Part shown: in pieces, positions 1,800 to 60,877 of the stretch
Numbering within the stretch: position 1 is the stretch's first letter
Layout of the letters: every line of letters begins with the position of its first letter
NCBI GenBank assembly: GCA_011037195.1
Contig: JAAEAF010000210.1
Span: forward strand, 1-64,000
DNA: 64,000 bases
From: Triatoma infestans
Lineage: Eukaryota > Arthropoda > Insecta > Hemiptera > Reduviidae
Direction of reading: 5' to 3'
Notes under the pieces: generated by a model
Told to the model about the DNA's origin: nothing
Database searches by the model: none
What the model saw: only the letters and a program-made list of their open reading frames with translations
Translations under genes and position numbers: made by a program

Positions 1800-2051
1800 T
1801 TCAAATCCAAACCTGACCTCCGATTATTTTTAGAAAATCTCAAAATTAAATTCAAAGAAGAGATAGAAAAACTGGAAGCAGCCAAATCTGATAATACAGG
1901 TAAATCACTGGCAAGCAGCTGGATTTCGTTAACGAAGCTGATGGAACAATCTTACGAAGAATTAGAAAGAGCTGGGGGAAATAAAAAAGAACTGGATAAA
2001 TACTTTGAATCATTGCTTAAGAAACTGAAGCAAAGCGCCCAAGAATTTGAG
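1800..2051 (+). CDS. Internal exon, type B module (84 codons), copy 1
   Basis: The acceptor TTTCAG ends at 1799 and the donor GAG|GTATGT starts at 2052. The reading frame is open across exactly 252 bases, phase 0 at both ends. The product starts FKSKPDL and carries KSLASSW, SLTKLM, AGGNKKELDKYF and LKQSAQEFE. It is about 57% identical by eye (48 of 84) to the exon at 13309 and also related to the one at 32462. The composition is rich in Lys, Glu and Leu, with spacing that suits amphipathic helices. There is no Cys, no transmembrane segment and no signal peptide. I do not recognise the family. Conservation of frame, length and splice sites while the introns fill with transposons argues that it is functional. 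No exon precedes it in the window, so the gene must begin to the left. Confidence 0.8.
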
Positions 2052-2124
2052 GTATGTCATTAATTATTAATAACTGGAATAGACAAGTGTTCTACTTTTT
2101 ATGGCATGTCAAGTTCTGAGATCA

Positions 2125-2208
2125 AGGATGGTCGTGTCTTCTCCAGTATAGAGCTCACCACCGGACAATGAGTTGTTCAGGCTCTTAGGGAAAGAAAATC
2201 TAAGAGGA
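2125..2208 (-). mobile_element. SINE body fragment
   Basis: A short match to the hairpin-bearing body of the SINE family at 1, 35153, 52690 and 54161: a CACCGGACAATGAG motif, then GGCTCTTAGGGAAAGAAAATC. The tRNA-like head is missing. It sits directly against the LINE fragment that follows. Confidence 0.5.
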
Positions 2209-2244
2209 ATGTTGATTAGTCTCGTACCCAGTGCGCTAATAATA

Positions 2245-3118
2245 CTGGTTAGTTACTCCCAAACCTTGGTGTTTGGGCCTAGAACCAAACACTCGGAACC
2301 CATGGGCAGATTTCCCAGCATCTTCCAGGCGGAAATTCACGCTATTGGAAGGTACGTTCAGTTGAACCTTGACAGAGGATATCGGAATCAGGAGATAGTT
2401 ATCCTATCCGATAGTCAGGCTGCTATTAAAACACTGAATTCTTATGTTATCAGTTCTAAAATGGTATGGGAATGCCTAGGTAAGCTCAACGACCTATGCA
2501 GAAGAAATAAAGTCACCCTCTATTGGGTGCAGGAACTTGTCGGCTTGGAAGGCAATGAGGTAGCCGACACCCTGGCAAAAGAAGGCGCTGGAGATGCATC
2601 TCCTCTCTTTGGGCCAAAGACCTTTTGCGGAGTCAGCGACCAAGTATTCTTAGAAGAAATCAAGAAGGAGGAGGTGGCGAAAAGAGCTCGTCTCTGGTAC
2701 TCCATCCCGGCATTGAGGCAGGCCAAGGTCTGTCTGGATGGTTATAACCAGGAAAGGTCGGAAGCCTGCATCAGTCTGAGTAAGAACAGGATCCGTATTC
2801 TTACAGGATTCCTTAAGGGGCATTGCAAACGCAGGGGGGACACCTGAGGAAGCTTGGCCTTGAAGATGATGGCACATGCAGATTCAGTGAGGATATGGAA
2901 GAAACTCCGATACATCTCCTCACAGAATGTGATGCCGTCATCCAAGAAGATTTAGTAGTCTGGGGCGTTACCAGATAGGGGAGCAGGAAATACCCACCCT
3001 TCCAGGATTTTGGGGATTCCTCAGGGAGCTCAACCTGGAGAGGGTGCTGTAGATGAGCTAGCTCATCTTCGGCACCAGAGGGGGTACAATAAATGGTCGC
3101 AGTACAGAACCCTAAAAA
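2245..3118 (+). pseudogene. R1-like LINE 3' end: RNase H and C-terminal region
   Basis: The translated segment contains RNase H motifs: FQAEIHAI (acidic Glu), ILSDSQAAIKTL (Asp) and GNEVADTLAKEGA (Asp), then the family-specific FCGVSDQVFLEE, a KNRIRILTGFLKGHC segment and a degraded zinc-like C-terminus. WVPGHVG has become WVQELVG. A frameshift near 2845 moves the C-terminus to another frame. The 3' end is A-rich (3110-3130). It is 5'-truncated, with no RT or endonuclease. Close relatives are at 27924-30605 (minus) and 56150-56790 (plus). Confidence 0.85.
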
Positions 3119-3494
3119 TAGAAAAAAAAGAAAGTAATAATCCCAAACCTTCCAGAATGTTGTATGGGCGATTAAAGATATATGGAGATATCGTCCCTTG
3201 AAGTTAACAAAGAATGTTAGAATGGTGAATTGAAGATTAAATAATTTGTGCCACATAATCAACATTCTAACGATAACCTAATGATATCTTTATTTGCTAC
3301 GAGGGATTCGTATTTAAGGCAATGCAAATTTTCTCCAAGTAAATAATAATAATAATAAACAAACTGATCCTCACAAGAGTTTCTTTTAAAGTAGTTTGCA
3401 TAGTAATAATTGACATATTTACTTCATACATAATTTTTAAAATGTACGAGTTGTCTCCAATTTAATATTTATTGGAGAATCTAAACTTAATAAA

Positions 3495-3759
3495 ATGATC
3501 AGAGATTATTCCCGTTAGCCTGTTTCATTTTGTGAACATCGACCGGTTTCAGATTGTCGCTCTATCAACAATACTTCTTGATTAAACAATCTGACAGAGA
3601 GTAACACACAAGAAGGAATGTGTAAACTGATATTTCTCTGAGCTTAGTCTGACGTTTTCACGCTGTTTATTTAAGGCATTTTGATGATGTGAGCCAACGT
3701 CCAATCCGGTCGATGACCGCAAAATGAAGCAGTCTTATCACTGGAAAAATTTTTGATAA
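3495..3759. repeat. Decayed palindromic Penelope-type element
   Basis: The left arm (GTTTCATTTTGTG, CATCGACCGGTTTC) and right arm (CCGGTCGATGACC, CAAAATGAAGCAG) are inverted copies of one another and match the arms of the elements at 10968 and 61198. The central part has diverged. The ACCGGTC-GATG part of the hammerhead survives in both arms, but the stem II and CTGAAGA parts are damaged. Confidence 0.6.
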
Positions 3760-3798
3760 TTTGTAGCTCTGCGCATCCAATCGCAACAATTAATAAAA

Positions 3799-3975
3799 TG
3801 AGTTTTTTTTTTTTTTTTAGGAAAGCTAATTACCCTTCTCCCCAAAAACTTCTTAATTCTCCATAAATGTTTCAATTAAAAGTCACAGACCTTCTTGTAC
3901 CTGTAAGTGAAGATAAATCGTTGGAGCCATTTTCAAGAAAATCGCAAAAAAACTGAAAAAATCCATTCAGTTATT
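3799..3975 (-). repeat. Fragment of the ~290-bp-unit repeat
   Basis: On the minus strand it shows the block TTGCGATTTTCTTGAAAATG, then a CCAACGATTTATCTTCAC-like motif and a G/A-rich motif in the order seen at 245-1031. It is a single partial unit next to T-rich runs. Confidence 0.5.
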
Positions 3976-4179
3976 TCTTTTTTTTCTTTACGCCATTTTT
4001 ACTTTGGCTATTCAGCCATTTTACGTCGCGCGGCCCAATAATAAAATTGGTAATTTGTAAAAATGATTCTTGTCGTTAAATTGAAATCTAATGTCTGCTA
4101 ATTCGGGACAAGGGTTAAGGTGATCTGCGGACATGTCATCTTGAAGTCCCAATGGACAGACTGGACTCGTCGCCAACTG

Positions 4180-6371: not shown

Positions 6372-6372
6372 A

Positions 6373-6488: not shown

Positions 6489-6596
6489 TGGTATGTTTTC
6501 GGCGGGCGGGCGGTGATGGTTCCAGAAGCGGCCGGTAGAGTTCTCGCGGCAATAGGCTGCCACTTTGTGTCACAGTTCAGTTCAGTTGTGAGTGAG

Positions 6597-7651: not shown

Positions 7652-7653
7652 GG

Positions 7654-11655: not shown

Positions 11656-12000
11656 TGCAATAAGATCCTAAGAGAGGGCTCTAAAGCAGATAGAGTGGGA
11701 CACGAAGTTGAGAATCTTACTCGCTACTTAGGCCAGACTAGAGTGGGAGACTGTCTTTATATACAGTAGCGCTAGCTCTGCAGGGGACAGTGTTTAGAAC
11801 AGTTTATACAGAGTTACAACGCGTCAGCAACCAACTACTACCTTTCTCCTTCATTAACTCTAAATCTTTCACTATCGATTTCTCTTATATGTGTAAAGTC
11901 CTGGCAGTTTGCGTTACTTCTTGATTATACAGTGTTCAGCATTATTTCCAGTTTATTTATCTCTTAAACCTAATTCTCTCCTTCTCATAATCATTATAAA
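11656..12000 (+). mobile_element. Solo LTR, family 2 (about 345 bp)
   Basis: It runs from TGCAATAAGATCC to TCATTATAAA, homologous along its length to the LTRs at 28559 and 55558, whose ends are better kept (TGTAATAGG...ATTATACA). A degenerate TATA-like box lies near 11758, and the GTAAAGTCCTGGCAG segment is shared by the family. No internal coding region adjoins it, so it is a solo LTR. It ends only 56 bases upstream of the exon at 12057. Confidence 0.75.
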
Positions 12001-12056
12001 GAAGGAATACATTTCAAACATATTGATAGAACGTTCATAATTTTCTTTATTTGCAG

Positions 12057-12254
12057 GGCAGAGGATTAGTTCAAGTTCAAACAATGAACTTTGAAGAGTT
12101 ACTTAAAAATACAAAAAAGCTTTTAGATGAACAGGCCAAAGAGGTGACTATTCTTCATGATCTGAAAAGAGAAGAATTAACGATTCTCTTTAGGGAATAC
12201 AAAGAGAAAATTATTCGAAGTTTGATTGAAACTGGTCAACAAATTGAAGAAGAG
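12057..12254 (+). CDS. Internal exon, type A module (66 codons), copy 1
   Basis: The acceptor TTTGCAG ends at 12056. The exon starts GGC AGA and ends GAA GAG before the donor GTTGGT at 12255, which is weaker than GTAAGT. Phase is 0 at both ends. The product has NFEELLKNTKKLLDEQA, then LKREELTILFREYKEK, then LIETGQQIEEE. It aligns end to end with the exons at 27335 and 60671; shared features are F-x2-L-x2-N-x-K-x-L-L-D, an EY/EH-x-E/D-K-L core and the (I/L)-x-E-E end. It is predicted to form two or three amphipathic helices and has no Cys or hydrophobic segment. The 5' neighbour module is type B at 1800, the 3' neighbour type B at 13309. Function unknown. Confidence 0.8.
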
Positions 12255-13308: not shown

Positions 13309-13560
13309 TTTAAATCCGAACATGATCTCCATTTATTTGTAGAAAATCTCAAAACTAAATTTAATAAAGAGATCGCTAAACTAACCATTGCTGACACTGG
13401 GGACATAGCGAAATCTTTGACAAATAGTTGGGACTCATTGACGAAACTGATGCAACAATTAGATGATGATTTTAAGAAAGCCGGTGGAGATAAACAAGAA
13501 CTCGAAAAATACTTCGTACTTTTACTTATTAGATTGAAGCAAAGCGCCGAAGAATTTCAG
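13309..13560 (+). CDS. Internal exon, type B module (84 codons), copy 2
   Basis: The acceptor GTGTTTCAG ends at 13308 and the donor CAG|GTATTT follows 13560. 252 bases are open, phase 0 at both ends. The product starts FKSEHDLHLFVENLK and contains AKSLTNSWDSLTKLM, AGGDKQELEKYF and RLKQSAEEFQ. It matches the exon at 1800 at about 48 of 84 positions and has identical length. Differences are spread over the exon and mostly conservative in the helical core, as expected for duplicates kept under selection. Function unknown. Confidence 0.82.
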
Positions 13561-13617
13561 GTATTTAATTAGATTATAAAATTATCCTAAAAATTAAGTT
13601 TCAGTAGATTATAAAAT

Positions 13618-21985: not shown

Positions 21986-22186
21986 CTGCCTCTATTATAT
22001 ATATAAAATTCTTATGTATTTAAAAATTTATTTTCTCCAGTTCATAGCTAGTAATAACTACAGCTCTATTAGAAAATATTTTAATAAGGTAGAAGTAAAC
22101 AAAGAAGAAACTGTAAAATTCCCTTTCCAATTTTTGCTGAGTGAAATCCTACCAAGAGTGGTTACTCTGCACAAAGAACTATTTTT

Positions 22187-25100
22187 ATGTTTGAATCCAT
22201 AATCCAATGGAATATGCGGGGTTATATCAATAATGTAGAAGGCATACGACGTATGATTGCGAAGTACCACCCACTAGGCATGTGCCTTCAAGAAACTAAA
22301 TTACGCCCTGGTCATACCGTCAAGATTCCTGGATACAATCTATACGGTATGGAGATACAACCCGCTCCTGGTGGAAGAGCGCACGGCGGTGTGGCCGTGT
22401 GCGTGAGAGAAAATTTGCGCTGCAGGCGGATCTCTTTACAAACAAATTTACAGGCTGTGGCTGTCCGTTTAGAGACACCGCTGCAGATCACCCTAACAAG
22501 TATTTACTTGCCGGATGCATCCTGGCGGAAGAGTGAATTAGAGAAATTACTCTCACAGCTACCTGCGCTATTACTATTGATGGGAGACTTTAACTCCCAC
22601 AATACTTGGTGGGGTTCTGCCAAAAGCGATGCCAGGGGAAAAATTCTTGAGGAAATCTTTGATAATTCAAACGTAACTCTCCTCAACAGTGGAGCAAGTA
22701 CACATTTCAACGCACACTCAGGGACCTTTAGCTCAATTGACCTGAGTGTTGCGACACCCACTTTAGCCATTCGGCTGAAATGGACAACTGCTGATGAATT
22801 GTTTTACAGTGACCACTACCCTAAAATAGTGAAGAGCTCCATCTCCAGATCTGAATATCTACCCCCAAAGAAATATGATATTAGGAGGGCAAACTGGTCC
22901 AACTTTTCTGCAAGAGTGGTAACGCCCTCACTGACGGGAGATACCACAGTTGATTCGGCAATGTTTGCACAAGCGCTGATACGAGCCGCAGAGAGCACCA
23001 TACCGAAGGTAGGCGGGAAAATTTCAAGACCTCCTGTCCCTTGGTGGAGCGCTGAATGTAAAATTGCCAACGCGGTGAAAAAGCGGGCCTTCAATAAACT
23101 CAAGAGGTACCCGGCAGGAGAGAATTTAATGAACTTCAAAATGCTGAGGGCCAAAGAGAGATATATTACAAAAAAAGCCAAAAAGGAAACCCTCGCTACC
23201 TATGTGTCAGGAATCACAACTACTACTACACTGAAAGAAGTTTGGAATAAGATGAAAGCTCTCTCCGGCCGGCGAAATAACCCATCTATACCAGTTCTTT
23301 CAACAAACAATGTTATAATTACTGAAACACAGGACGTAGCTGAGTGCTTAGCCAGATACTTTTCCCAAGTATCAAGTACCCAGGCATATTCGTCTGAATT
23401 TATCCAACGAAAATCTGAGATGGAGCTGCAGCCATTAGATTTTAATACAACCACTTACGAAGAATACAATAATTCTCCCCTTACTATGCAAGAATTGGAA
23501 AGGGTAATAATGAAAACCAGGGACACCTCAGCAGGTGTAGACGGTATACCTTATGCAATGATAAGGAATTTAGATGCATTAGGGAAAACTTGCCTGTTCA
23601 ATTTGTATAACTTCATATGGAACACAGGGCAGTATCCTGACGGGTGGCGAGAATCACTTATTGTTCCGATTCCCAAAGAGGGAAAAAATCCTAGTGACCT
23701 CTCCAGTTATAGGCCCATAACACTGACCACCTGTTTAAGTAAAGTCCTTGAAGCCATGGTGAACTATAGACTGGTGTATGTTCTTGAAACCAGAGGACTT
23801 TATAGTCAATCCCAGGCGGGATTCCGCAGACACCATTCTACACTGGATCAGATGAGCCGCTTAGAAGCTTATGTTCAAAACGCTTTTTTAAATAGACAAC
23901 ATGTACTGGCTGTGTTTTTTGACATCGAAAAAGCCTACGATACCACGTGGAGGTTTGCAATTTTGCGGAGATGCCATGAGTGGGGATTAAGAGGGAATCT
24001 ACCAAAGTTCCTCCAGGGATTCCTGGAATTAAGAAGGTTTCGAGTGCGCTTGGGGTCAGTCTTATCAAACCCCTACATTCTAGAAAATGGAATACTCCAG
24101 GGATCAATACTAAGCGTAACTCTTTTCTTGGTGGCAATAAATTGCCTAGCCGAAGTCGTGGCAGAACCTTTACAAGCATCCTTATACGTTGATGACCTTG
24201 CCATCTACCTCTCAGGTGAAAACTTGGATGACGTTGGGGCAATTCTCCAACAAACTATAAACAGAGTGGCAGCAGAAGCTACTAAAAACGGATTTAAGTT
24301 CTCGCGTCAAAAAACAGTAAGTCTTCATTTCTGTCGATTAAGACACGAGCATAGCCCACCCAGCTTATTTTTGAATAACACACCGGTAGAATACAAAGAA
24401 AGCGTTCGCTTTTTGGGTCTCGTATTTGACTCCAAACTGAACTGGCAGGAGCATCTCGAATCTACATACATAAAAGCAAAACGAACTTTAGACATTCTAA
24501 AATTTTTAGGAAGCTATAAATGGGGAATGGAGCGAGACATATTGCGACGTATATTTATTTGCCTCACCCGTTCAAAATTAGATTATGGATCTCAAATTTA
24601 TAGCTCGGCACGCAAATCAAGACTTAAAATAGTAGATAAAGTATACAATGAGGGTATCAGAATTATTACAGGCGCCTTTCGCACAAGTTCCCTGCAGAGT
24701 CTATATGTTGAATCGGGTTTACTGCCACCTCAACTCAGACGAGAACAGTTAATCCTAACCTACTACGTTGGAATATGGGGGAGACCAACTCAGTCATTGT
24801 TTTCAACAACATTTGAGAATCCCTACAATGAACAATTTCGTCAGCAAAGAACACGGACGCGGCCCTTTGGCATTAGAGCCAAGACCATACTACAAGCGGA
24901 GGAAATGGAAATTGGCCCAATAGAACACTGGAATTTTAATCACCAACCCCCTTGGCTAATGAACTCAGCATGCATCCGTTTGGACCTATCGACCCATAAG
25001 AAAGAAGAAACCCCTCCATTGTCTATAGGCAGAAATTGTTGGAAATTTTAAACTTTTATATGGACTATCGACCGATATTCACAGATGGGTCAAAAGTAGA

Positions 25101-27334: not shown

Positions 27335-27544
27335 GCCGCGGGACCGTTTAAACAATATTCACCTGATTTCCAAGACTTAGTTAATAATACAAAACAGCTG
27401 TTAGATGAACAGGCCAATAATCTGATAAAAACAATGGGTCTTTATGATACTCTTAAAAGAAAAGAATTAATTAAATTCTATAAGGAATACAATGAAAAAC
27501 TTATTCAGAATTTGCTGGAAACTAGCAAAACCATTGAAGAAGAG
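27335..27544 (+). CDS. Internal exon, type A module (70 codons), copy 2
   Basis: The acceptor ATTTGCAG ends at 27334 and the donor GAG|GTACGT follows 27544. 210 bases are open, phase 0 at both ends. The product contains FQDLVNNTKQLLDEQANN, then LKRKELIKFYKEYNEKL, then LLETSKTIEEE. It is four residues longer than the exon at 12057 through a small insertion after the first helix (IKTMGLY region), and otherwise closely alike. No hydrophobic or Cys-containing segment. About 4.9 kb of intron, filled by LINE and LTR sequence, separates it from the type B exon at 32462. Function unknown. Confidence 0.82.
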
Positions 27545-27923: not shown

Positions 27924-30605
27924 AGGGGGGGGGGTAAGGAGAGGGTTGTACTGCAACCTACGCGGTCTATTGCGTTATGCCCCTCGGTGCCGTAGGCTAG
28001 CCTACAGCACCCTCTCAGGTACCATGTGCGAGCCTACCAGGTTAAGATCTCTAAAGAAATTTTAATATCCTGGGGGGCTCTAGGGAGGGTATATCCTCCT
28101 CCTCCTCCTGGTAACTACCCAGGTTCCTAAAACTTTTCTGGATGGCAGCATTGCAGTCCGTTAGGAGATGTATTGGAATTTTCTCCATCTCCCCATAGAA
28201 TCTGCACATCCTAACAATCTCACCTGAATCTACAATGCCCCGTGAGGAAACCCGTAAGAATACGGAGCTTTTTGTTACTGAGGCCGATGCATGCTTCCTC
28301 TCTGGGTTAAAATTCCCCAAGCATTCTTTGCCTGCCTCAGTCCTGGGAGGTAGTACCAGAGTTGAGACCTCCTTGTTTCCTCCACGTTCTTGAGTTCCTC
28401 TAGTAGAGTGAGGTCGCTGACCCCATAAAATGGTTCAAGCTGCAGAAGTGGAGATGCAGCATCTTTCCTTACCAGAGCGTCGGCCATTTCATTTCCTTCA
28501 ATGCCAACATGCCCTGGCACCCAAAAGAGGGTGACTCGTTTCCCTGCCCAGGTCATTTGTGTGATAGGATCCGAAGCAGAGAGACAGACACAAAATTGAG
28601 AATCTCACTCTCTACTTAAGCCAGACTAGGGAGACTCTGTATATATATATATATAGCTGCGCTAGCACTACAATGAGAAGCCTTTGGAACAGTTTATACA
28701 GCAGCAACATCGCGTCAGCAACCAACAGTTCCTACATGTCTCTTTACTCAGTCTAAATCTCTCACTACTTAATTACTATTTAAATGTAAAGTCCAGCCAG
28801 TTTTGTTTTCTAGTTAATTATACAGGGTTCAACATTCATTCCAGCTTATTTCTCAAAAACCCTTCCTCACTCATTTCTCTCTTTCTAAAACCTATTAAAG
28901 CATATAATATGGAAGCTCAGTGCTCTAATGACGGCCTGACTATCGGAAAGGATTACAATCTCCTGGTTCCGATAACCCCTATCGAGGTTAAATTGAACGC
29001 ACTTCCATTTGCGTGTATTTCCGCTTGGAAGATACTGGGAAACATGCCCATGGTTCTGAGTGTTTGGTTCTTGGCCCAATCACCAACGTCCAGGTTTCCT
29101 TGAGGATCTTGGATCCATCCGTATACTATTTTATGGATGTTCCCTGATATCGCCAGAGCGGATCCATCGCTCCATTCTTTCTTGGCACCCAGCTTCAAAG
29201 AAACATTTTTGAAAAAGCTGTATTTCTTGATCATACAGTCACTAGGGCGATTCTAGGTGAGGAATCCTGTAGATAGAGATGACCACTCCCTAGCCTCAGG
29301 CCCCCATCCCTTCCCGTACCTTCTCTAAAATCCTGAGGAGAGCGCCAGCACAAGGTGCAGTGAGACAATCCTCTCCCGCCATTCATACGCATTCGAGAAT
29401 TCGTATGACGGTCGAGAATCTTCTTGACGGTCGCTGTCATGGTCTTCTTGTACAACGACTTGCGCTATAGTGATAACAGGCATCACCTCATGATGTACAT
29501 CCACCGTAGGATACTCGGAGGGCATCCGCAGGACTTGCCCGCCATTCTCCTACATACCATGAGGGCGTCAGTGGCCTTGCTAAACTTGAATCAATATGTT
29601 TATTCCAAAGGAGTTTTACTATCAACAGTGATAACTCTTGATACCTCAAGAGGGATACCTAGGAATTTAACCTCCTTCTTCCAGTCTAATTTTGCTCCGT
29701 CTAGCCGGATACCTTTCAGATGTGGAAGTGTTCTTCTAGTAAAGGGTATGATGGTGGTTTTTGGAGAATTATCCACCTACTTACTATTAATGTCTAATTC
29801 TCTCTGTATTATGTCATAGAGGGTTTCTTCGAACTTCCCTCTAGCAATTATGACGACTACATCGGCTTATTCCTGACAGGAAATACTGAGGTCCGTCAAA
29901 CTGCAGAGAGGCTCCACATTAAAGGTGACAAAACCTCTCCTTAGTAGAACTGAAAGTGATAGTTCGTGAGCCCACCACTGTTCTCGTGGACAGCATCTCC
30001 TTCATCCATCGTGCTGTCTACCCCTCTTCTGATCAGGGCTTTACTGGCCGTCTCATAAGAGGTGTTATCAAAGGCGCCTTTTATGTCAAGGAAGGCACAA
30101 ATGGCCGTTTCCTTGACATCTAGAGTTCTCTGAATTACATCCGTCAACTGATATAGGGCGCTATCCGTTGATCCTTCCGCCCGGCACCTTTTCTAGAACC
30201 TCTGTCCTAATATAATTATCCACGGCCTTCTCCAATTTCTTTAAGAGAAAAGACGTAAGGCAGATAGGCCTGAAGGATTTAGGTAGGATGGCGCCCTTCT
30301 CTCCGCTTTGGGGATGGATACCATATTGGCACTTCTCTATGGTTTCGGTCACGCCCGAGTGTGCCAAACTGCTTTGAGTAATTCTGACTAAGTGTGGAAG
30401 ATAATCCCTTATTATGCTCTTTTGCAAAAGGGTAGGGAAGATACTGTTCACACCATGCGACTTGAAGGGCTGGAAGTTGCCAATTGCCCATTCCTACCTT
30501 GACGGCGTGCAGATATGTCTTAGCCATGTTCCAGTCATTCCTGCTCGGTCTGCTGGGTTCTATCATCTCTATAACATCCTCTGGACTCCCCGGAAAGTGG
30601 GTCTC
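27924..30605 (-). pseudogene. R1-like LINE, minus strand, split by an LTR
   Basis: In coding order on the minus strand: an RT start (30451-30161, with SFRPICLTSFLLKKLEKAVD), the RT catalytic region (30147-29941, FLDIKGAFDN), a degraded middle with no YxDD seen, RNase H beginning at about 29230 (WSDGSALA, FQAEIHANG, ILSDSQAVIRAL), the inserted LTR at 28559-28901, then the rest of RNase H (WVPGHVGIEGNEMADALVRK) and a C-terminus (FYGVSDLTLLEELK) down to about 27930. The frame is broken many times. Same family as 2245-3118 and 56150-56790. Confidence 0.85.
28559..28901 (+). mobile_element. Solo LTR, family 2, inserted in an RNase H region
   Basis: It starts near TGTGATAGGATCC and ends near CTATTAAAGCA. 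It contains a (TA)n stretch where relatives have a TATA-like box, the CAGTTTATACAGCAGC segment and GTAAAGTCCAGCCAG. Removing it joins the two halves of the minus-strand RNase H (VIRAL...SSD side at about 28920 and the TWAGKRVTLFWVPG side at 28556). I could not define an exact target duplication. Confidence 0.75.
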
Positions 30606-32461: not shown

Positions 32462-32713
32462 TATAAATCCAATCCAAATTATCAATCATTTATAGTAAAC
32501 TTCAAAAGTAAAGTTAATATAGAGGCTGACAAACTTAAAGCTTCCGGCGAAGGAAACATAGGAAAATCGTTGCAAAATAATTGGGACTCATTGACGAAAA
32601 TGATGCTATATTTATTCGATGATTTCAAGAGAGCAGGCGGAGATAAGGAAGAACTCGAAAAGTATTTTGAATCATTATTTATTAAACTGAGGCAAAGCGT
32701 CCAAGAATTTAAG
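32462..32713 (+). CDS. Internal exon, type B module (84 codons), copy 3
   Basis: The acceptor TTCTATTTCAG ends at 32461 and the donor AAG|GTAATT follows 32713. 252 bases are open, phase 0 at both ends, and the exon has no early ATG. The product starts YKSNPNYQSFIVNFK and carries GKSLQNNWDSLTKMM, AGGDKEELEKYF and KLRQSVQEFK. The KSL-x3-WDSLTK and AGGDK-x-ELEKYF blocks match the exon at 13309 exactly or nearly so, while the first 30 residues are more diverged. Same length as the other two B exons. It lies 210 bases upstream of a DDE transposon. Function unknown. Confidence 0.82.
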
Positions 32714-32922
32714 GTAATTCTATAATCATCATGTGGGATGGCAAAAATCAAATTCTGGAAGGATAAGTTTCTAATTTTTTTTTTCAGTAAGATTACTCTT
32801 AGTTTACGCTAAACCTTACAATTTAATTTAATATTAGTTAGTTTGACAAGAAAATCCGATAATGACTATGAAATTGTAATTACCGACCATCATTTTGTTT
32901 GTTAAATAATTTTGATTTGAAT

Positions 32923-36967: not shown

Positions 36968-37348
36968 AAAAATTTAAGTTTTTTTTTTTTTTAAAAAAAA
37001 AGACCGAATCTACAATCCTTACCGATCATTTAAGGACGGTCGAGAAGAATCTTCCATAGTTGTACATGGTATTCGATGGATCGGTTACAGCGCTTAGCAA
37101 ATTTTGAAGAATGAAATTTGCAATTTTATTAGCTGGCAAGTGTATTAGGCTTGCGCAATAAGTTACAGGATCAATTAATCGATTTATAGAGTGTATCCTC
37201 TCCCCAAGAGAGCACAGTGATAGGGATGGCCGCCATTTTGTATTTTAGGTGTGCCAGTTCCGTCAAACCCTCTCTACTATTGTACATCCAGCCATATGTG
37301 ATAAACTTAGTGAGATTTGCCAGCGATTAAATGTTTCTGTTGTTTAAG

Positions 37349-37554
37349 GGCGGTTGTTCAGATAAACAACAGTTTATTAGAGTTCCAAGAGTTACTTAAT
37401 AATGCCAAACTGATTTTAGAAGTTCGGGCAGAAGAGCTGAGAAATATTGAGTCTTGCTGATTTTATCGAAAGAAAAAGAATTTCCTACATCTTCAGGAAA
37501 CTTTATTAAAGTCCACAGAATTGGATCGAAGCTAGTGAAAATATTGAAGAAGGG
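37349..37554 (+). pseudogene. Dead type A exon
   Basis: The 206 bases align with the type A exons: GAGTTCCAAGAGTTACTTAA matches the FEELL region, then AAACTGATTTTAGAAG, GAAGAGCTGAGAAA, and at the end ATTGAAGAAGGGGTTGGT against ATTGAAGAAGAG|GTTGGT at 12254. The acceptor is TTTAAG instead of TTTGCAG. The length is not a multiple of three, and there are in-frame stops (a TAA soon after the start and a TGA in the middle). Closest in layout to the exon at 12057, including its GTTGGT donor. No live exon overlaps it. Confidence 0.8.
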
Positions 37555-38689
37555 GTTGGTAATATTTAAAAAAGTATATTGATTTCATAGTGAATAAATC
37601 TGATGCATTAATAAAAAAAAAAGTTACGACTCCTTTATTATGTATTATTTTTAAATTATGTTTTGTTATTAAATTAATAAATTAAAAATATTAATAAATT
37701 ATGATTATTAAAGATATATAATATATCTTGATTATGATTAATAAATTATAAGATAATTTGCAATTTGAAATGAACTCAAGAAATATTTAAATATTATTAT
37801 GCCTTAAATATTATATCAGTCTTAGCGAAAGATTTCTGACAAATGGAAGATTAAGAAAGATGAACACATTTTTATCTGTCAAGTTTGTTTACTTGGAAAT
37901 GTAAGGTCTGGATAAGATAGAAGTGCCTCGAATTGTAACTTTTGGTATCATTTACTGTTACCGAAGAAATAAAGAAATAGCAGATCCAGGTTAGCTCAAT
38001 CGAACTCAAAGTTCCATTTCCAATTAAACAGGCTTAACAGATAAAAATGTGTTTATCTTCCTCTTGCCTACTTATATTTGTATTGTATATATATATATAC
38101 CTCAATACACCACTCATTTAAAGATAAGTCTTTAGAAAACCTATAATTGTGGAATCAGCTTCATTTTCGAATGAAATTGTTGATCGCGAAAACAATTTTT
38201 GAGCTTGAAGGGGAGCCCGAGTCACCCTAGGTGCTAGTTGAATGAGCGAGATAAGATGGATGCTCAATAATTTTGATCTCAAACGTAGCTAAAAACTTGA
38301 CATATATCTGGCTAAAATTACCCATCCCACGAAATAAAATGCTTTTGACTGAAAACAGTAAAACATTTTTCTTTCTAAAAATTCACATTACTATAAAGGC
38401 CTGTTATTTTTTATTTCAAACATTTACACCAGGAAATTAATTTTTCTGAGTTAAGTTTATCTAAGAAATACTGCTTCATGAAATACTGTTTCATCGTCTA
38501 TGTACCATTTAGAGCAATTAAATGTTTATTAAATTTCACTTGTCAGAAATAATTTGAACTGAAACATGGGCATTAGCAAAAATGAAATTTAAAACATGTT
38601 AGGTTTATAACAAATAATCAGAAAAAAACCTGCTTTATTAAAAAGTTAATCGATTATATGATAATTTATATCGTTGGAATGCCACAGTT
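37555..38689. other. Intron sequence, nothing recognised
   Basis: Very A/T-rich with many TAT and TTAA runs and a short (TA)n near 38087. No type B exon was found here, although the alternating order would call for one. Confidence 0.5.
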
Positions 38690-39420: not shown

Positions 39421-40896
39421 TTATGTTTCGTGGAGGAATCGCGGAACTGGAACGAGCTTTGTGATATGGAAAAGGTTTGACTCTGATTTCTTGTGACCTG
39501 TATCTATTCTGTATATTGAGGTTGAGATTTTTTCCAAAACTTTATATGGTCCAATTTTTAATTCAGCCAATTTGTTCCTGTTTAAGTGATTTCCGTTATC
39601 TACATATACCAAGTCTCCTTCGTTAAATTCCCAATTTATTCTGTTTTTGTCAAACTGTTGTTTATTATAATTATGGGACTTTATTGTATTGTCTAAGGCA
39701 AGTTTTCTATCTTGAAGTAAATTATTATATGTTGTTTCCTGTTTCATTTCCTCCGGTAAAATGTTCATGTCTTTCCCTTCCAACCTTTGTTCAATGTTCA
39801 TGTCTTTCTTTTGTAAAATGTTCATGTCTTTCCCTCCCATCACTGTATGCTCCGTTTCATTATATCTTTGCGTGCATTCATATGCTATGGTCGTCCAGGC
39901 CATTTTTTTATTTGTTTCATTCATCCTACATCTAATTTTATTGACTAGAGTTTGATTAAGTCTTTCATTTAAACCGTTTGAGAATGGTGCGTTAACTACA
40001 GTGAAGATAATTGGTATGTTTGCTTTCTGTAAATAGTGTTTAAAATCTTTTGAATTGATACCTGGATATTGATCTGATTAAATGATACCAATTTTATTAC
40101 CTTGGCTTACTACTGGATGAATTAGTTTTATAAAATCACTTGAGGTCTGTGTCTTCGAAGTCAAAATGTAGGCGTATCTTGTGAAGTGATCAACAAGAAG
40201 GTGTAAATATTTTTTTGTAGAACGTGAGCCTCCGAATCCACCAATGGTATCTATGGACATTATTTCGAAAGAATAAGTAGCGGGGCCTAAGTGAGACATT
40301 GATCCAAATTTATATTTTCCCCTTGATTTGTTTTTTATGCAGGTTTCACATCTTTCACAAATTGTTTTTATATTATATGTTAAGTTGTTTGCTGTATAGA
40401 ATGGTTTAATCTTATTTTTGCATTTGTTTTATTCCTATGTGACAATAACAATAGTGTATATTTTCGATAAAAGTTTTACTAAATTCCTCCGACAATATAA
40501 TCTTTTCCTTTGTTCCAATCTTTTTATAATATTTTTTATTTTTTAATTTCAGTTTATGTTTATTGTTTTTTATATCTTCGTTTTTTTCTTGATCATTTTG
40601 GATGTCCTCTAGTTTTATTAAGTTCACAATTTTTAAACTTTCATCCTGATGTTCATGTGGTTCTAATACTGGATTTCTGCTCAAACAGTCTGCCTCTAAG
40701 TTATATTTTCCTGGAGAATATATGACCTCGAAATTAGATAATACGCTAAATCTCCGAGCTCTTCATCCGTTCATTCTTTCGAATGATCAGAAAAAACTTT
40801 AAATTTCTTTCCGATGAGCCAGTGCTGCCAATATTTTACTGCCTCTTTTATCGCTAGACATTCCAGATAGATGGCTTTTTTCCTTTTCTGAGTGTC
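39421..40896 (-). pseudogene. RNase H end and integrase of the gypsy element
   Basis: 40890-40770 encodes the second half of RNase H (ECLAIKEAVKYWQHWL, FKVFSDH). 40740-40670 has EADCLSRNP, marking the RNase H-integrase boundary. 40480-40420 has IHYCYCHIG, a degraded HHCC finger. The integrase core has IMSIDTIGGF (first Asp), SDQYPG near 40070 (second Asp) and NGLNERLNQ near 39965 (Glu). The C-terminal 167 codons are open to the stop at 39421 and contain a local triplication of KDMNI. Frame breaks lie near 40745, 40410 and 40080. Confidence 0.85.
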
Positions 40897-41380
40897 ACAA
40901 ATTGGCTGAATTAAAAATTGGACCATATAAAGTTTTGGAAAAAATCTCAACCTCAATATACAGAATAGATACAGGTCACAAGAAATCAGAGTCAAACCTT
41001 TTCCATATCACAAAGCTCGTTCCAGTTCCGCGATTCCTCCGCGAAACATAACTTATATATAAAAAAAAAAAAAAAATGCCTGTAAAGGGGGGAGATGTAA
41101 AAGTGAGTCCATCGTTCTTCATTTAATTGAATTTAAATGGCACTGAAATGATAGCTGAGGATAACCAGCATGGAGAGATATAAGGAATAGGTTATGTTAA
41201 AGTGGTACAGTGAATTGTGATTGCTGAAAAATAGTGAATTAATATCTTTTAATGTCGTTTCTTTTTCTTACAGGTAAGATTATATAATAAATCAAGCATG
41301 TAATGTAATTTAATCAAAAGATTGTGTTATTAATAAAAATAAACTTTTTCTTAGAGACAAACTCAGTATAGCTGTCAATT
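40897..41380 (+). mobile_element. Inverted piece of the same gypsy element (integrase end plus LTR)
   Basis: On the plus strand it encodes the last part of integrase (LAELKIGPYKVLEKIS to PVPRF) and stops, then has the purine tract AAAGGGGGGAGATG and about 290 bases of LTR. It is nearly identical to the minus-strand sequence at about 39085-39590. It interrupts the pol frame between FSRKL (41384 side) and TQKRKKA (40890 side). TGTCA occurs at both junctions (40892 and 41379), a possible 5-bp target duplication. Confidence 0.85.
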
Positions 41381-41383
41381 TCC

Positions 41384-42617
41384 TTGAAAAATAGGCGTAT
41401 GGTTTCTCTTCTTGACTTTGCTGTGGCTGTTTCAAGATAGCTCCTATTCCGTGTATACTTGCATCTGTATAAATATGTATCGGTAAGTCTGGATCAAAGA
41501 TAGCTAAAATAGGTTTTAAGCAAAGTAATTTTTTTATTGTCTCAAAGGATTTCTGACATTGTTCCGACCAAATAAATTTTTGTCCTTTTCGTAATAAGTT
41601 ATGTAAAGGATCTGATATAATTGATATATTTGGCACATATTTTCCATAAAAATTTATTTTCTCTAAAAATTGTCGGATATTCTTTTGTGTCCTGGGAACT
41701 GGAAAGTTTCTTATAGCAACTAAATTATCCTTCAATGGACTAATTGTATTATTTTGTATTAAGCGGCCTAAATATTTCACCGAATCTTGTGCGAAGGTAC
41801 ATTTTGAAAATTTTAATCTGAAGCCTTCCGTCAAAACTGCTTCCAGTAACAATGACAAGTGTTTAATGTGTAGTGGAAATGTTTTTGAAAAAATAAGTAT
41901 ATCATCTATATAGTTTACAACGAAATCTGATAGTTTATGTTTCCTTATAATATTACATAAAATTCTTTGAAAAATTGCTGGTGAAGTTTTTAAACCAAAA
42001 GGTAAACAAGTCCACTGATAATGGCCTTCCTGAGTAACAAATGCTGTTTTATGCTTGTCTTCAATCCTCAAGGGAATCGACCAGAATGCTGAGTTTATAT
42101 CCAGTGTAGAAAAAAATGTACACCCTCTTGTTTTAACCATTAAATCCTCAATTAATGGGAAGGGGTGTGACTGAGGAATTACAATTTTGTTTAAATCGCG
42201 GAAGTCTATACATAATCTTGATCTTTTTCCTTCTTCTTTTTTGTAGGCCAGTGTTACCGGGGCAGCAAAAGGGCTATATGATTCTTCGATTAGATTTTTT
42301 TGTAATAATGATGATACTTGTTGTTCTATTTCTTTTTTATCTTCAATAGTACACCTATATGGTCTTTTGCTGCAATATTTATCTATTAACAAATCAATAC
42401 GTGCTTCATAACCTTTTACAGTGCCTATATCATATTTATCTTTCGCAAAAAGTGATTTGTATTTGTATATTAAGTCATCTATTTGAGACTGTTGATGGGA
42501 ATCAAGATGATTTACTGAAATGTTAAAATTTGCCACTTCTGTGTGTTCATTAAAGTTTATTTTATAGTCTTCATTTATGTTATCTATATTTTCCCCTAGG
42601 ATGTGAACATGTTCCAT
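41384..42617 (-). pseudogene. Reverse transcriptase of the gypsy element
   Basis: About 410 codons are open on the minus strand. Motifs in order: RPYRCTIEDKKEIEQQVSSL, SRLCIDFRDLNKI, FFSTLDINSAFW, WTCLPFGLKTSPAIFQ, catalytic YIDD in VVNYIDDILIF (about 41900), KYLGRLI, and the start of RNase H (IHIYTDASIHGIGA, AYFSRKL). The frame runs out inside the inverted insertion. The RT itself looks intact from ATG 42617, though the polyprotein is broken before and after. Confidence 0.9.
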
Positions 42618-42639
42618 TAATATTTTGTAAATTTTGTTG

Positions 42640-44202
42640 TTCTTCCTTAGTTTTACCTGAGAAGTCAGGAATTATTTCTGGAATTTACTTCCTGTTTATT
42701 GTATTTCTTTGTGAAATTGTGAGGTTTTTGTGTAATTTCTAGTTTTTCATTTTGAATTATATGAAAATTTTGTATGCAATCTAGCCCAATTAAAAAATCA
42801 TAATCAAAATCCATCTATTACAAAAACATTAATATTTTTTTCAATGTCAAAAATTTATGGACTCTTTAGACTTACCATTCCTATAGTTTTTTTCACGCCA
42901 TTAATCGTCTTTAAATTTAAGTTTTTTTTATTGCTAATTTGTTTATTTTTTAAACATAATAATCTAGAATTTATTAGGGAAATATTTGAACCTGAATCAT
43001 AAAATTCCCAAAATTTCTAATTTGTCATTTAGCTATAATTTAATTTTGATTAATGGCGGAACTATTAGTTTTATTGGTCCATTTCATTTAATTCTGTTTC
43101 TAATTCGGAATTATTAACCATTTTTATTTGATCTCTTTTTGGCGTATCATTTTTTTTTTTAAACCAACGTAATGATTCAGGATGGTAACGAATACCTTTG
43201 TTTTCTTTTTCGCAAATTTTGCACGGTTTGTCCCTTCCACTTTTGTTTTTAATTTTATTTTCCAAACTTGTTACCATCTTTTTTTCCGAATTCTTTTTAT
43301 TAACTAAATGTTCTAAACCTCTGATGTTATTAAATAAATCATTAGTTTCTTTCAGGCAATGTCTATCAATTTTATCAGATATAAAATTTGGCAGCCCCGT
43401 TGCAATGAGATCAATTAGAGTGGGCTTATCTATTGATTTATTTATTTCCAATAACAGTCTTTCTTTTTTTTAAAGCATATTCTAATAATGAACCCTGTAT
43501 GTATTTGAATGAAAATGCGTACCTGATTGGCGTCCATCCTTTGTCCGCATAAGTTTCACAAAAGTTATCTCGCCATATTGACCACGCTGAGTTTATCGTA
43601 TGTTTTATAAGCATGGAACTATACCAGTCCAGACATGACTCTTCCAGAAATAGCCTAAGAACTTCGATTTTTTCAATATCCTCTTCTATTCCCAAACGGG
43701 TACATTCGCTTTCAAAAGTTAGGTACATTCCTAATTGGATTACATTTGCGGTTTTTCTTGTGAAGTTTTCTAATACAAATTTTGCTGACAATTTTGTTAT
43801 GTTATGGTAACCAGTGGCAGAGTTCTTTTTTTCAGAAAAAGTTTCCAGGATTCTTGTTAAGGCCTCTTCTGTAATTCCCGCAGTATACGATTCTGTTGCC
43901 GAAAATTTGTAATTTCCTCTAAGAAATAACCCTTAAACTGCATATTTCCGTCTACATCTATATAAACATCCTTTATTTCATCTGTCATCGAAATCCATAC
44001 TTGTCTTTTATCGTGTCTCTTTTGCAATTTAGTTTTCACTTTTTGGTAGGCTTGAGTTTTTGTAACTGTTTTATGTAGTTTTGCTGGTTGAAATTGTTCT
44101 GGAAGGACGAACGTCTGTTTATTGATCGTGGTGATTGAGGTTATACATATTAAATTCGTTTTTGGGTCATCTGCAGCTTTTACTAGAAATTCAAATCTTA
44201 AT
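42640..44202 (-). pseudogene. gag and protease region of the gypsy element
   Basis: On the minus strand, 44196-43857 is one open frame (KAADDPKTNLICITS and QVWISMTDEIKDVYIDVDG). 43791-43438 has a capsid-like segment (ECTRLGIEEDIEKIEVLRLF, SCLDWYSSMLI). After a frameshift near 43450, 43440-43071 has a Lys-rich segment and CKICEKENKGIRYH, a poor zinc-finger-like motif. A protease-like YDSGSNISLIN lies near 42990-43005, then a broken stretch to the RT start. Several frameshifts and stops. The gag start is lost at the LTR junction. Confidence 0.75.
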
Positions 44203-52680: not shown

Positions 52681-52689
52681 CGGATCGAA

Positions 52690-55557: not shown

Positions 55558-55887
55558 TGTAATAGGATCCGAAGAGAGGGATTCAAAACAGAGAGGGAGA
55601 AACAAAATTGAGAATCTCACCCGCTACTTAGGTCAGAATAGAGTGGGAGGCTCTGCGCTAGATCTACAAGGACAGCCTTTAGAACAGTTCATTCAGTAGT
55701 TGCAACGCGTCAATTACTACCCTTTCTACCCTTCTCTTCACTCACTCTAAATCTCTTGCTAACTAATTTCTATTATTGGTGTAAAGTCCTGGCAGTTTGT
55801 GTTGTTCTTCATTATACAGTATTCAGCATTATTTCCAGTTTATTTATCTCTTAAACCCAATTCTCTCCTTCTCATATCCATTATACA
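55558..55887 (+). mobile_element. Solo LTR, family 2, best-kept copy (330 bp)
   Basis: TGTAATAGGATCCG to TCCATTATACA, with TG...CA ends and inverted TGTAA/TTATACA. It matches 11656-12000 and 28559-28901. The TATA-box region is deleted in this copy. No target duplication is obvious (CAGAG left, GAATA right). Confidence 0.78.
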
Positions 55888-55889
55888 GA

Positions 55890-56150
55890 ATACCGTCTCA
55901 TAAATTTTCTACACCAGTATTTACCAGATTCTTCCCCCGCCTCGTTTTTTGAGGTACAAACTGAACTTTCAACACCCTTTTTTTTTGTAAATCCTCCAGA
56001 CTCTAGAGTTTTCCGTCCACCTCTAGCTTGTCATAAGTAATATAAGCCTTTTTATATTCAGTATTAGCATTCTTCCAATAGGGTAAAGCTTTTTTCTAAC
56101 TTCTCTTACACTCAAAGGAAAATCCTCAAATAAAACTAAATTTGTACGTA
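55890..56150 (-). pseudogene. Possible LINE ORF1 C-terminal fragment
   Basis: A minus-strand frame with LVLFEDFPLSVREVRKKLYP, YWKNANTEYKKAYITYDKLE and VDGKLWSLEDLQKK. This resembles the conserved C-terminal part of ORF1-like proteins that come before endonuclease-RT proteins in some insect LINEs. Not an intact gene. The assignment rests on motif memory only. Confidence 0.4.
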
Positions 56151-58300: not shown

Positions 58301-58454
58301 CACTCCTTCACTGATATAGAATTTACCCTAAAATCAATTTTCTATGCGTAAGGTTAAATTGATCAGACTGCATAACCAGCCGGTCCATGATACCGTATTG
58401 AAGAGGGAAGCCTCAACGTCTCTCGTCGCAGTCAGTATTTCGGAAAAGGTTTTG

Positions 58455-59470: not shown

Positions 59471-59661
59471 TTTATTTTTGTTCCCATGACAACCTACAGT
59501 GTTACTAAATTTTAGTTTTCGATATGATTTTATTTTTAATTAATAATTAATTATTTTTGTAACATATGGGAAAACCACAGTTTTATTGTGCTGTTTGTTA
59601 ATGAAAATTCGATAAATGATGTTTGGAATCTCGTTGTTTTTTTTTTTTTTAATTAAATTAA

Positions 59662-59900
59662 AATCCGGAACCGGTCAGGAGTAAAAGAAATATGCATGTT
59701 TCGACGGATAAAATACCAGATGTTATCCAGTATTGCGGACCCATCCACATATTCAACATATTTAAAAATGTTTGAAATTGAGGTCCCAACGATGGGGAGA
59801 AAAATGTCAAACAGATCATTCATGATGATGTTAACCAAAATAGGTGCAGGACAACTGTCATGGCCAAACCATCTTTTTGTAGGTAAAAATTATTTATAGG
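59662..59900 (+). repeat. Fragment related to the hammerhead repeat at 61023
   Basis: 59662-59765 matches 61046-61140: CCGGAACCGGTCAG, AAATATGCATG, CGACGGATAAAATACCAG, TGTTATCCA and ATCCACATAT. The hammerhead core upstream of CCGG is missing, so only the 3' side of the motif is left. Confidence 0.6.
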
Positions 59901-59909
59901 TTACGTGAA

Positions 59910-60246
59910 TGTAACAGCAACCAAAGAGAGTAAAGAGAAGAGAAACAAACCCAACCACTCTCTCGGACTAGAGTGGGAGAAACTGTATAAATACAGCTAC
60001 GGACAGTCCATGAAAATACAGTTCAAAACACAGTTTGATACAGTTCAACACGTTTCCTCTATAGTTCATCATCTCACCAGTCATTTCGTGCCATTTTCAT
60101 ACCACTCTACCTTAACCATTCTGTATTGTAAAGTCCAGGCAGACTGTGTCTCAGTATTATTATACATAGTTTTAATCAGTGTTAACTCTATCTTCTTATA
60201 TCATCAACCAGATCCAAATTCTCTCCACCTAACACATCCAATATAT
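59910..60246 (+). mobile_element. Solo LTR, family 1 (about 337 bp)
   Basis: TGTAACAGCAACC to ACACATCCAATATATTA, homologous over its length to 9043-9362. The TATAAATACAG box is near 59989, and CTGTATTGTAAAGTCCAGGC is shared with family 2. No internal region adjoins. It lies about 425 bases upstream of the exon at 60671. Confidence 0.8.
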
Positions 60247-60615
60247 TAAAGTATCCTAATTTTTAACATAGATTCAGCTTTTTTATAAAGAGATCGTTTG
60301 GTGTGGGGTTGCCGTCCAATTATCGGAGTTTAATGTGTTTACTTTATCTAGTGGAATATTTGTGATAGGGAGGAAACGACAAGTGGGATCATTATGTATT
60401 CAGGCAGACTTGATTCAATGTTTTCTATAAATGATTCTATAAACTGAAATGAATTTTTAACATCAGAAGTTTCTTAGAAAATAAATGATTGAACTACTGT
60501 AAGTTGAAATGCTGGAATAAATATATCTAATATTAGTAATTTTTTTTTTTATTATGGGGGCCTCAAGTTTGATTTTGCGGCGAGGACTGCAAATACGAGT
60601 TATGCCACTGTCTCT

Positions 60616-60618
<3 letters not shown>

Positions 60619-60649
<31 letters not shown>
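60619..60649. repeat. (AT)n microsatellite next to a splice acceptor
   Basis: About 15 uninterrupted AT units. The run ends 21 bases before the exon at 60671, where the branch point and pyrimidine tract are expected; only TTTTTTTGG-type sequence separates it from the TAG acceptor. Confidence 0.92.
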
Positions 60650-60653
<4 letters not shown>

Positions 60654-60670
60654 CTTTTTTTGGTTTGTAG

Positions 60671-60877
60671 GGCACAGGATCCGGTCAACAAAGAACTCCA
60701 GAATTCGAAGAGGCATTTGAAAATATCAAAAAATTTTTACTAGATAAAGGTGAAGAGCTGAAAAAAACAAAACCCCTTCCTCCTCATAAAAATGACCTGT
60801 TAGGTAAAATCTTTAAAGAACATCATGATAAACTTATGCAGAAACTTAATGAAACTAACCCGAAACTTCAAGAAGAG
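60671..60877 (+). CDS. Internal exon, type A module (69 codons), copy 3
   Basis: The acceptor TGGTTTGTAG ends at 60670, and the donor GAG|GTAAGT, a perfect consensus, follows 60877. 207 bases are open, phase 0 at both ends. The product starts GTGSGQQRTPEFEEAFENIK and has FLLDKGEELKK, then LGKIFKEHHDKLMQKL, then LNETNPKLQEE. The exon lacks an early ATG. It is the most diverged of the live type A exons but keeps the F-x2-A/L-x2-N-x-K start, the K-E-H/Y-x-D/E-K-L core and the E-E end. The intron before it, from the B exon at 32713, is about 28 kb and includes the dead type A exon. Function unknown. Confidence 0.78.

Follow-up and report, generated by a model that had tools for sequence, protein, structure and literature searches.

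Small exons of two alternating types, A and B, are found in the first 64 kb of a Triatoma infestans contig that is 193,832 bases long. The question raised by this locus is whether these exons belong to one long gene encoding a repetitive protein, as the initial annotation had proposed, or to several short genes lying one after the other. In the following, the window is this whole stretch of 64,000 nucleotides; the contig starts at window base 1.

Exons of the window

Three B exons and three A exons are present, all of them on the + strand, as had been described. The B exons are localized at 1800-2051 (unit 0), 13309-13560 (unit 1) and 32462-32713 (unit 2) and have 84 codons each. The A exons are localized at 12057-12254 (unit 1, 66 codons), 27335-27544 (unit 2, 70 codons) and 60671-60877 (unit 3, 69 codons). 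Phase 0 at both ends holds for 6 of the 6 exons, each with an AG acceptor and a GT donor. The A exon that would be the partner of the B exon at 1800 would fall off the contig. The size given for the A module (66-70 codons) is confirmed, but the count of six exons missed a seventh one: a decayed A copy at 37347-37562 on the + strand (nhmmer, E 2.7e-20), interrupted by a frameshift and an in-frame stop. No B remnant was found between this decayed copy and 60671, and a search of both strands of the window found no further A or B copy.

The mutual similarity of the exons is far above chance. The identity is 51-57% for the window B pairs (E 4e-23 to 1e-26) and 34-43% for the window A pairs (E 7e-7 to 3e-13). 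The open frames are not due to chance: at the observed divergence, 1-10 unconstrained simulations out of 500 per pair are free of stops (2, 1 and 10 for the B pairs; 7, 3 and 1 for the A pairs). According to a simple score against a donor consensus, two of the six donors are weak, i.e., A1 (GAG|gttggt, 2.2) and B1 (2.1), the remaining four scoring 3.8-8.0. The donor form of A1 recurs in A5 and A7. The presence of transposons in the introns is also borne out, since reverse transcriptase (RT), integrase-type or DDE transposase domains were recognized in 6 of the 10 open reading frames scanned.

The array beyond the window

The A/B pairs run on past the window to the end of the contig (C202), along one strand. 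The B exon of unit 3, which pairs with the A exon at 60671, is at contig 77646-77897, i.e., outside the window. Contig C12920 contains one further unit and contig C367 a single separate unit (unit 8). A unit is made of A (65-70 codons) and B (84-90 codons); units 3-8 also have a third exon, C, of 10 codons plus a stop. The splice signals of the units would join A, B and C in phase 0. The serial duplication of an A+B pair, suggested by the initial annotation, is supported. Tandem duplication is directly visible, a 14.3-kb stretch recurring 40 kb further on, and some copies have decayed.

In the 941-Mb assembly, the B queries match at least 11 places on 4 contigs; there is therefore no dispersed repeat. 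The A query matches at least 12 places (13 rows, one place being split in two) on the same four contigs. Both numbers are lower bounds, and A1 and the decayed A of the window are not among the matches listed for the genome-wide A search. The possibility of a repetitive element present at many unrelated loci was rejected on these low counts for A and B.

Exon C and the limits of a unit

A short exon bearing a stop is found about 220 bases 3' of B in all five of units 3-7 (e.g., AKLEEFKKTK-stop); considering units 3-8, the distance from B to C is 0.2-1.2 kb. The exon C of unit 3 (AKLEEVKKTK-stop) is at contig 78123, beyond the window. In unit 8, B8 is followed by a C-like exon (AKIEKITKKN-stop) with a strong polypyrimidine acceptor and a score of 23, the next candidate having a score of 9 and the minus-strand control of the same stretch at most 11. 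The score alone is no proof, a minus-strand control also reaching 23 in the 28 kb that follow B2. The scan of the stretches after B0, B1 and B2 found no exon C for units 0-2; this exon is short and can be missed.

Since units 3-8 each carry a stop-bearing C, each of them can end its own protein, and a self-contained gene of the form A-B-C seems to be what the family is built from. A single gene with a single transcript is thus left unsupported, and the idea of one giant gene is weakened by the same exons. A more restricted version, in which at least units 0-2 are spliced serially, from B to the next A, giving several five-helix bundles and ending at C3, is improbable. It agrees with the phase 0 observed throughout, with the three intervals between the window units, where no C or first exon was found, and with the results of tblastx, in which no further shared exon came up once transposons are set aside (of 102 test pieces 30 codons long, 63 are detected at E 10). 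Nevertheless, units 3-8 each have their stop-bearing C, though a short C can again be missed, and the search with a concatenated query of 527 aa found no relative with a length of about 290-922 aa, none of the 7994 scored candidates having E <=10.

The use of B as a last exon through read-through of its donor was considered and rejected. No AATAAA is present within 300 bases of B0-B2. The read-through frame of B0, B1 and B2 ends after exactly three intron codons (VCH-stop, VFN-stop and VIL-stop, respectively); in B8 the stop comes after five codons and in B3-B7 it is not so early. For comparison, the first stop is at codon 4 for 4.3% of the GTA sites of the window. The early stop common to B0-B2 is an odd coincidence, but these three copies have a common ancestry. 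At the last codon of B the first base is variable but AG|GTA is retained, as would be expected of a donor.

Units 0-2 may also be old, dying copies, the ends of which were lost to transposons, units 3-8 being the live ones. This reading is compatible with the assignment to apolipophorin-III discussed below, and is judged unlikely. The decayed A at 37.35-37.56 kb, exon C not being found, repeat sequence starting only about 60-105 bases 3' of B1 and B0, and the weak donors of A1 and B1 are all consistent with it. On the contrary, B0-B2 are all open with dN/dS values of 0.25-0.47, and every splice site is kept.

First exon

In the three intervals of the window, the candidates for a first exon or a signal peptide are not above the minus-strand control (8 vs. 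11). No first exon was recognized on C202 or in the 6.7 kb upstream of A8, and none plausibly recurs once per unit, the search being for a hydrophobic core between an ATG and a phase-0 donor, so that exons in other phases or devoid of such a core would be missed. The candidates are few and are either in repeats or not recurring per unit. The upstream blocks common to A3-A6 resemble old transposon or repeat sequence.

These results, together with the phase-0 cassettes and the fact that units 3-8 end on their own, would also be expected if one leader exon, located off the contig, were spliced alternatively to A-B-C cassettes that each supply a separate stop and 3' end. This is very improbable: unit 8, being on another contig, would need a leader of its own and none is seen there, and splicing across up to 200 kb would be required. 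Since no leader is seen for unit 8 either, none may have been found simply because first exons are difficult to recognize. With separate small genes, which we prefer, each unit would have a first exon of its own, coding for a signal peptide, and its product would be secreted.

Relationship to apolipophorin-III

Once spliced, unit 8 (A+B+C) matches the Pfam family ApoLp-III (PF07464) with 41.3 bits (E 2.1e-10) from position 4 to 144 of the profile (141 of 146 positions), the cut-off being 36.3 bits. It is the sole tested unit above this value. Units 7, 5, 4 and 3 are below the cut-off (28.5, 24.7, 20.4 and 17.5 bits, respectively), and so is unit 2 in the window (20.1 bits), while unit 1 has no match. 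ApoLp-III is the best Pfam family for units 3, 4, 5 and 7 (E 4.8e-3 to 1.9e-6) and also for unit 2 (E 7.5e-4). Unit 8 was also scored against a profile built from 16 lepidopteran sequences: it has 29.3 bits, a value that none of 500 residue shuffles and none of 500 block shuffles attains, and it outscores its own reversal. A8 and B8 match successive parts of the Pfam profile (4-52 and 51-124) at one place; taken singly, these matches are weak (17.1 and 18.3 bits). Genome-wide, the Pfam model gives 89 single-stretch matches, of which none is over the cut-off and many are stronger than A8 or B8 alone. Unit 8 has weak amphipathic-helix matches to Apolipoprotein A1/A4/E (PF01442; 15.9 bits, cut-off 90) and to perilipin (PF03036; 18.8 bits, cut-off 33).

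The units of the window are placed in this family because of their similarity to unit 8 and not by their own profile score. With B8 as a query against the whole genome, B0, B2 and B1 are matched with E values of 2.0e-11, 1.7e-9 and 1.8e-7, respectively; A8 vs. A2 gives 1.4e-12 (30-kb target). The window units are not above block shuffles, the score of unit 1 being reached by 41 of 500 and that of unit 2 by 219 of 500. When the profile of the family is compared with that of lepidopteran apolipophorin-III, the score is within the controls: 6 of 200 shuffles reach it and the reversed alignment scores above the true one (24.1 vs. 18.3). Protein searches with window-exon queries found no homologue.

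An unrelated helical family, secreted or cytosolic, of which unit 8 would match the profile by convergent amphipathic-helix composition, is worth considering: the window units do not exceed shuffles that keep the local helix pattern, profile-profile tests fail, and single-exon matches to the ApoLp-III model are common in the genome. We regard it as distinctly improbable, since unit 8 is above a curated cut-off along almost the full profile, and stands above all 1000 shuffles (500 residue, 500 block) as well as above its reversal. The initial annotation had described a repetitive helical protein of an unrecognized family. Helices are indeed predicted, but judging from the match of unit 8 the family of the array is most likely apolipophorin-III.

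Exon A is predicted as 2 helices (pLDDT 80) and exon B as 3 helices (pLDDT 67), the two being folded apart. Among the 15 predicted helices, 9 exceed 950 or more of 1000 shuffles in amphipathicity. No convincing match was found in the PDB, either by sequence or by fold. Exon C would lengthen the last helix of B, and each unit would fold as a single bundle of five amphipathic helices (two from A, three from B). The length of A+B+C (159-170 residues) is like that of apolipophorin-III (PF07464), and the 2+3 predicted helices fit the five-helix bundle described for this protein (PMC5383653). It is probable that the window contains part of a tandem array of likely separate small genes, i.e., diverged copies of insect apolipophorin-III, each with a predicted five-helix bundle.

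Selection on old and young copies

Selection on the exons, which had been proposed from their conservation, is verified for B only: the pooled dN/dS is 0.32 for B (95% CI 0.14-0.54), clear of 1, but 0.76 for A (CI 0.41-1.23), close to the value near 1 that would have spoken against the initial proposal; the A exons are thus not clearly conserved in sequence. The old B copies are under purifying selection (0.25-0.47 among B0, B1 and B2). Among the old copies, synonymous sites approach saturation and the estimators disagree; the B1-B2 value is 0.57 by ML and 0.70 by YN00, which exceeds one A pair in each case (0.50 and 0.65, respectively), YN00 giving values for only 3 of the 6 old-copy pairs. 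The dN/dS between old copies is compatible with a recent death.

In young paired copies, amino-acid change is up to 3.5x the rate of the flanking introns; in exon A, most of this change is at its start. For the young B copies it is 1.7-2.7x that of the flanking introns in 6 of 6 pairs, with p<0.05 in 5 of them (p 0.12 for B5-B7); for the young A copies, p<0.05 is obtained in 4 of 10 pairs (A4-A5, A4-A7 and two pairs of a paired and a solitary copy), these young pairs being few, sharing branches and thus not independent. The p values for A shift with the alignment of the exon start (0.0005 vs. 0.0032 for A4-A5; 0.074 vs. 0.014 for A5-A7), and they become 0.34, 0.14 and 0.11 for the three pairs of paired copies when the first 7 codons of A are removed. 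In the pairs with B3, the synonymous rate is also above the intron rate (0.15-0.18 vs. 0.10), 142-148 gapped intron columns having been dropped. The quick change of the young copies would reflect selection for new binding surfaces, and it would fit an immune or other conflict-driven role more than housekeeping lipid transport.

Discussion

Apolipophorin-III, an exchangeable apolipoprotein of insects, is usually treated as one small gene. Small duplications occur elsewhere, with two proteins each in Manduca sexta and Choristoneura fumiferana. The present array differs from apolipophorin-III elsewhere by at least 8 strongly diverged units and by the excess of amino-acid changes in its young copies. 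In the literature, searched by title and abstract opening, no tandem or diversifying apolipophorin-III cluster is described. The Anopheles stephensi gene, as presented in PMC5383653, is split into two coding exons (45 and 540 bp), unlike the units found here, which have at least 3 coding exons each. According to the same source, apolipophorin-III carries lipids and, as a second function, senses microbes (PMC5383653). The units of the array would work in the same manner, the bundle opening on lipid or microbial surfaces.

Bicycle genes have many small exons and bicycle proteins have paired CYC motifs; on the contrary, no cysteine is present in the six exons of the window, and no relation is claimed. 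In gall aphids, bicycle genes are a fast-changing insect gene family (PMC9168663).

A bolder reading, which we consider improbable as a whole, is that an apolipophorin-III gene gave rise to a fast-diversifying cluster, hypervariable at the start of A and with young exons outpacing their introns, and that units 0-2 may have lost C and been fused in phase 0 into a multi-bundle «poly-apolipophorin». If this were true, a lipid-shuttle protein would have been recruited for an arms race, and exon loss would be a simple route from tandem genes to a repeat protein.

As for the tandem array of separate small genes, it corrects a natural misreading: tandem units in phase 0 resemble a single modular gene when their very small last exon escapes notice. 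The array would illustrate the way in which a small gene for a helical bundle is multiplied in a genome packed with transposons. Moreover, a cluster with young copies outpacing their introns would make the immune role of apolipophorin-III testable by evolution.

Organization of the array

The window is best explained as part of a tandem array of likely separate small apolipophorin-III-like genes, rather than as the single long gene proposed by the initial annotation. The six exons then claimed are all present on the plus strand: type B at 1800-2051 (B0), 13309-13560 (B1) and 32462-32713 (B2), each of 84 codons; type A at 12057-12254 (A1, 66 codons), 27335-27544 (A2, 70 codons) and 60671-60877 (A3, 69 codons), the digit being the unit number. 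Each is indeed phase 0 at both ends, with an AG acceptor and a GT donor. Identity among the window copies is 51-57% for B and 34-43% for A, and intron similarity between copies is confined to tens of bases next to the exons. A DNA profile of the three A exons detects an additional A copy with a frameshift and a stop (37347-37562, E 2.7e-20); no B copy was found in the window beyond the three. The search for exons shared between window intervals gave transposons and weak matches; of 102 test pieces, each 30 codons long, it detects 63 even at a threshold of E 10.

The window covers positions 1-64000 of contig C202, which is 193,832 bases long; its remainder was read as well and the assembly (941 Mb, 13,959 contigs) was searched. 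On the plus strand, C202 continues with B3 (77646-77897), A4 (116701-116895), B4 (118727-118978), A5 (144482-144679), B5 (148502-148753), A6 (184684-184881) and B6 (188703-188954). Units 5 and 6, 40 kb apart, lie inside a 14.3-kb stretch whose copies are 99.4% alike. Solitary A exons occur on the minus strand, a broken one at 126.7-126.9 kb and an open one at 168.47-168.66 kb of C202 and another at 31632-31811 of contig C12920, about one per 40-kb unit; no B was found with them on that strand. On C12920, a copy of unit 5/6 is followed by an inverted A and by unit 7. The offset between the two contigs is constant (172,474) at unit 6 and almost as constant at unit 5 (132,272-132,273), which suggests that C12920 may overlap the end of C202 and that the array is one longer locus. 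Contig C12628, with one A and one B resembling those of C202, may be a redundant copy. A separate unit 8 lies on contig C367 (A8 31696-31905, B8 33447-33716, terminal exon C8 34943); B8 and B1, used as queries, find the same 11 places. Upon grouping, B0-B2 separate from B3-B7, and A3 clusters with A4-A7.

Terminal exons

An acceptor followed by AKL(E/D)E(F/V)KKTK-stop is found 220-225 bases after B in B3, B4, B5, B6 and B7 (5/5). C8, preceded by a strong polypyrimidine tract, encodes AKIEKITKKN-stop and scores 23 in its 11-kb stretch (next candidate 9, minus-strand control at most 11); this score alone is no proof, because the control also reaches 23 in the 28-kb interval after B2. These stop-bearing exons imply that the 3' ends of units 3-7, and likely of unit 8, are complete. 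After B0, B1 and B2 the same scan gave no C exon above the control in those intervals. Read-through of these three donors (2052-2063, 13561-13572, 32714-32725) meets a stop after exactly three codons (3/3), which is not so in B3-B7. No first exon was found for any unit. The odds of the rival explanations are not exclusive, since units 0-2 could also be decaying within an array of separate genes.

Transposons and repeats

The introns do contain transposons, as initially described: reverse transcriptase, integrase-type or DDE transposase domains occur in 6 of 10 scanned ORFs. A long open LINE ORF of 968 codons, with endonuclease and reverse transcriptase domains, spans 22145-25051 (plus strand), and LTR-retrotransposon Pol pieces (reverse transcriptase, RNase H-like and integrase C-terminal type domains) lie at 39421-42671 (minus strand). 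A repeat of about 280-350 bases, perhaps a solo LTR, occurs on the plus strand at 11656-12003, 28574-28854 and 55558-55890 (first and third copies 79% alike); the copy ending about 50 bases upstream of A1 initially resembled a promoter or first exon. Another block (C202:139500-141300) also lies upstream of A3, A4 and A6, as well as of the inverted A copies. It apparently retains reverse-transcriptase-like remnants in its 3' part and is probably an old transposon carried along.

Family assignment

Unit 8, spliced to 170 aa, scores 41.3 bits against Pfam ApoLp-III (cut-off 36.3; E 2.1e-10), its residues 23-164 aligning with positions 4-144 of 146. ApoLp-III is also the best family for units 7, 5, 4, 3 and 2 (28.5, 24.7, 20.4, 17.5 and 20.1 bits), all below the cut-off; unit 1 has no match to this model. 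Membership of the window units rests on their likeness to unit 8 and not on a direct profile match. Against a profile built from 16 lepidopteran sequences, unit 8 reaches 29.3 bits, above 500/500 residue shuffles and 500/500 block shuffles (best 24.8); block shuffles reach unit 1 in 41/500 and unit 2 in 219/500, and when the family as a whole was compared with the lepidopteran alignment, profile against profile, the result was not above its controls. A genome-wide scan with the Pfam model gave 89 matches of a single stretch each, all short of the cut-off; among them A8 and B8, lying at one place, match adjoining profile parts (4-52 and 51-124), though weakly (17.1 and 18.3 bits). Two helices are predicted for A (pLDDT 80) and three for B (pLDDT 67), consistent with a five-helix bundle; no convincing match to any PDB structure was obtained.

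Selection on the exons

Selection had been claimed for the exons; this holds for B, and A shows no clear conservation. By Nei-Gojobori, the B pairs of the window have dN/dS of 0.25, 0.31 and 0.47 (pooled 0.32, CI 0.14-0.54) and the A pairs 0.87, 0.61 and 0.99 (pooled 0.76, CI 0.41-1.23), A exceeding B in 1964 of 2000 bootstraps. Other estimators agree broadly, not for each pair: ML places B1-B2 (0.57) above A1-A3 (0.50), and YN00, with values for 3/6 pairs only, B1-B2 (0.70) above A1-A2 (0.65). In simulations without constraint, copies escaped stop codons in 2, 1 and 10 of 500 runs for the B pairs and in 7, 3 and 1 for the A pairs. Together, dN/dS and simulations indicate that B is constrained, and that A remains open yet changes fast.

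Among young copies that belong to an A-B pair, amino-acid-changing differences per site are more frequent than those in introns: 0.100 vs. 0.028 for A4-A7 (p 0.00012), 0.087 vs. 0.026 for A4-A5 (p 0.0005, or 0.0032 with the exon start aligned otherwise), 0.230 vs. 0.098 for B3-B4 (p 1.6e-6) and 0.080 vs. 0.037 for B4-B5 (p 0.012). For B the excess is 1.7- to 2.7-fold in 6/6 pairs (p<0.05 in 5/6), these pairs, like those of A, being drawn from few copies and not independent. For A most of it falls in codons 1-7; once these are left out it is 1.4-2.1-fold and not significant. The two open solitary inverted A copies have no excess (0.074 vs. 0.066 in introns). It must be noticed that the start of exon A is hypervariable: the first 5-7 codons are strongly unlike among the copies at C202:116701, C202:144482 and C12920:48562 and the inverted ones (starts ESDIG, LGGVLP, LGALP and LGAVG), the flanking introns being about 95-98% alike. 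The excess in paired copies and its lack in the solitary ones would fit diversifying selection on pairs that are live, with drift in the orphans, as far as few copies can tell.

Proposed mechanism

The cluster would be fed by tandem duplication, its introns lengthened by transposons, and some copies would die (37.35-37.56 kb; 126.7 kb). Each unit would have its own promoter and first exon and would yield a secreted five-helix bundle. A passage in PMC5383653 describes bundle opening of apolipophorin-III on lipid or microbial surfaces; by analogy, the product of each unit may open on such surfaces in the same manner.
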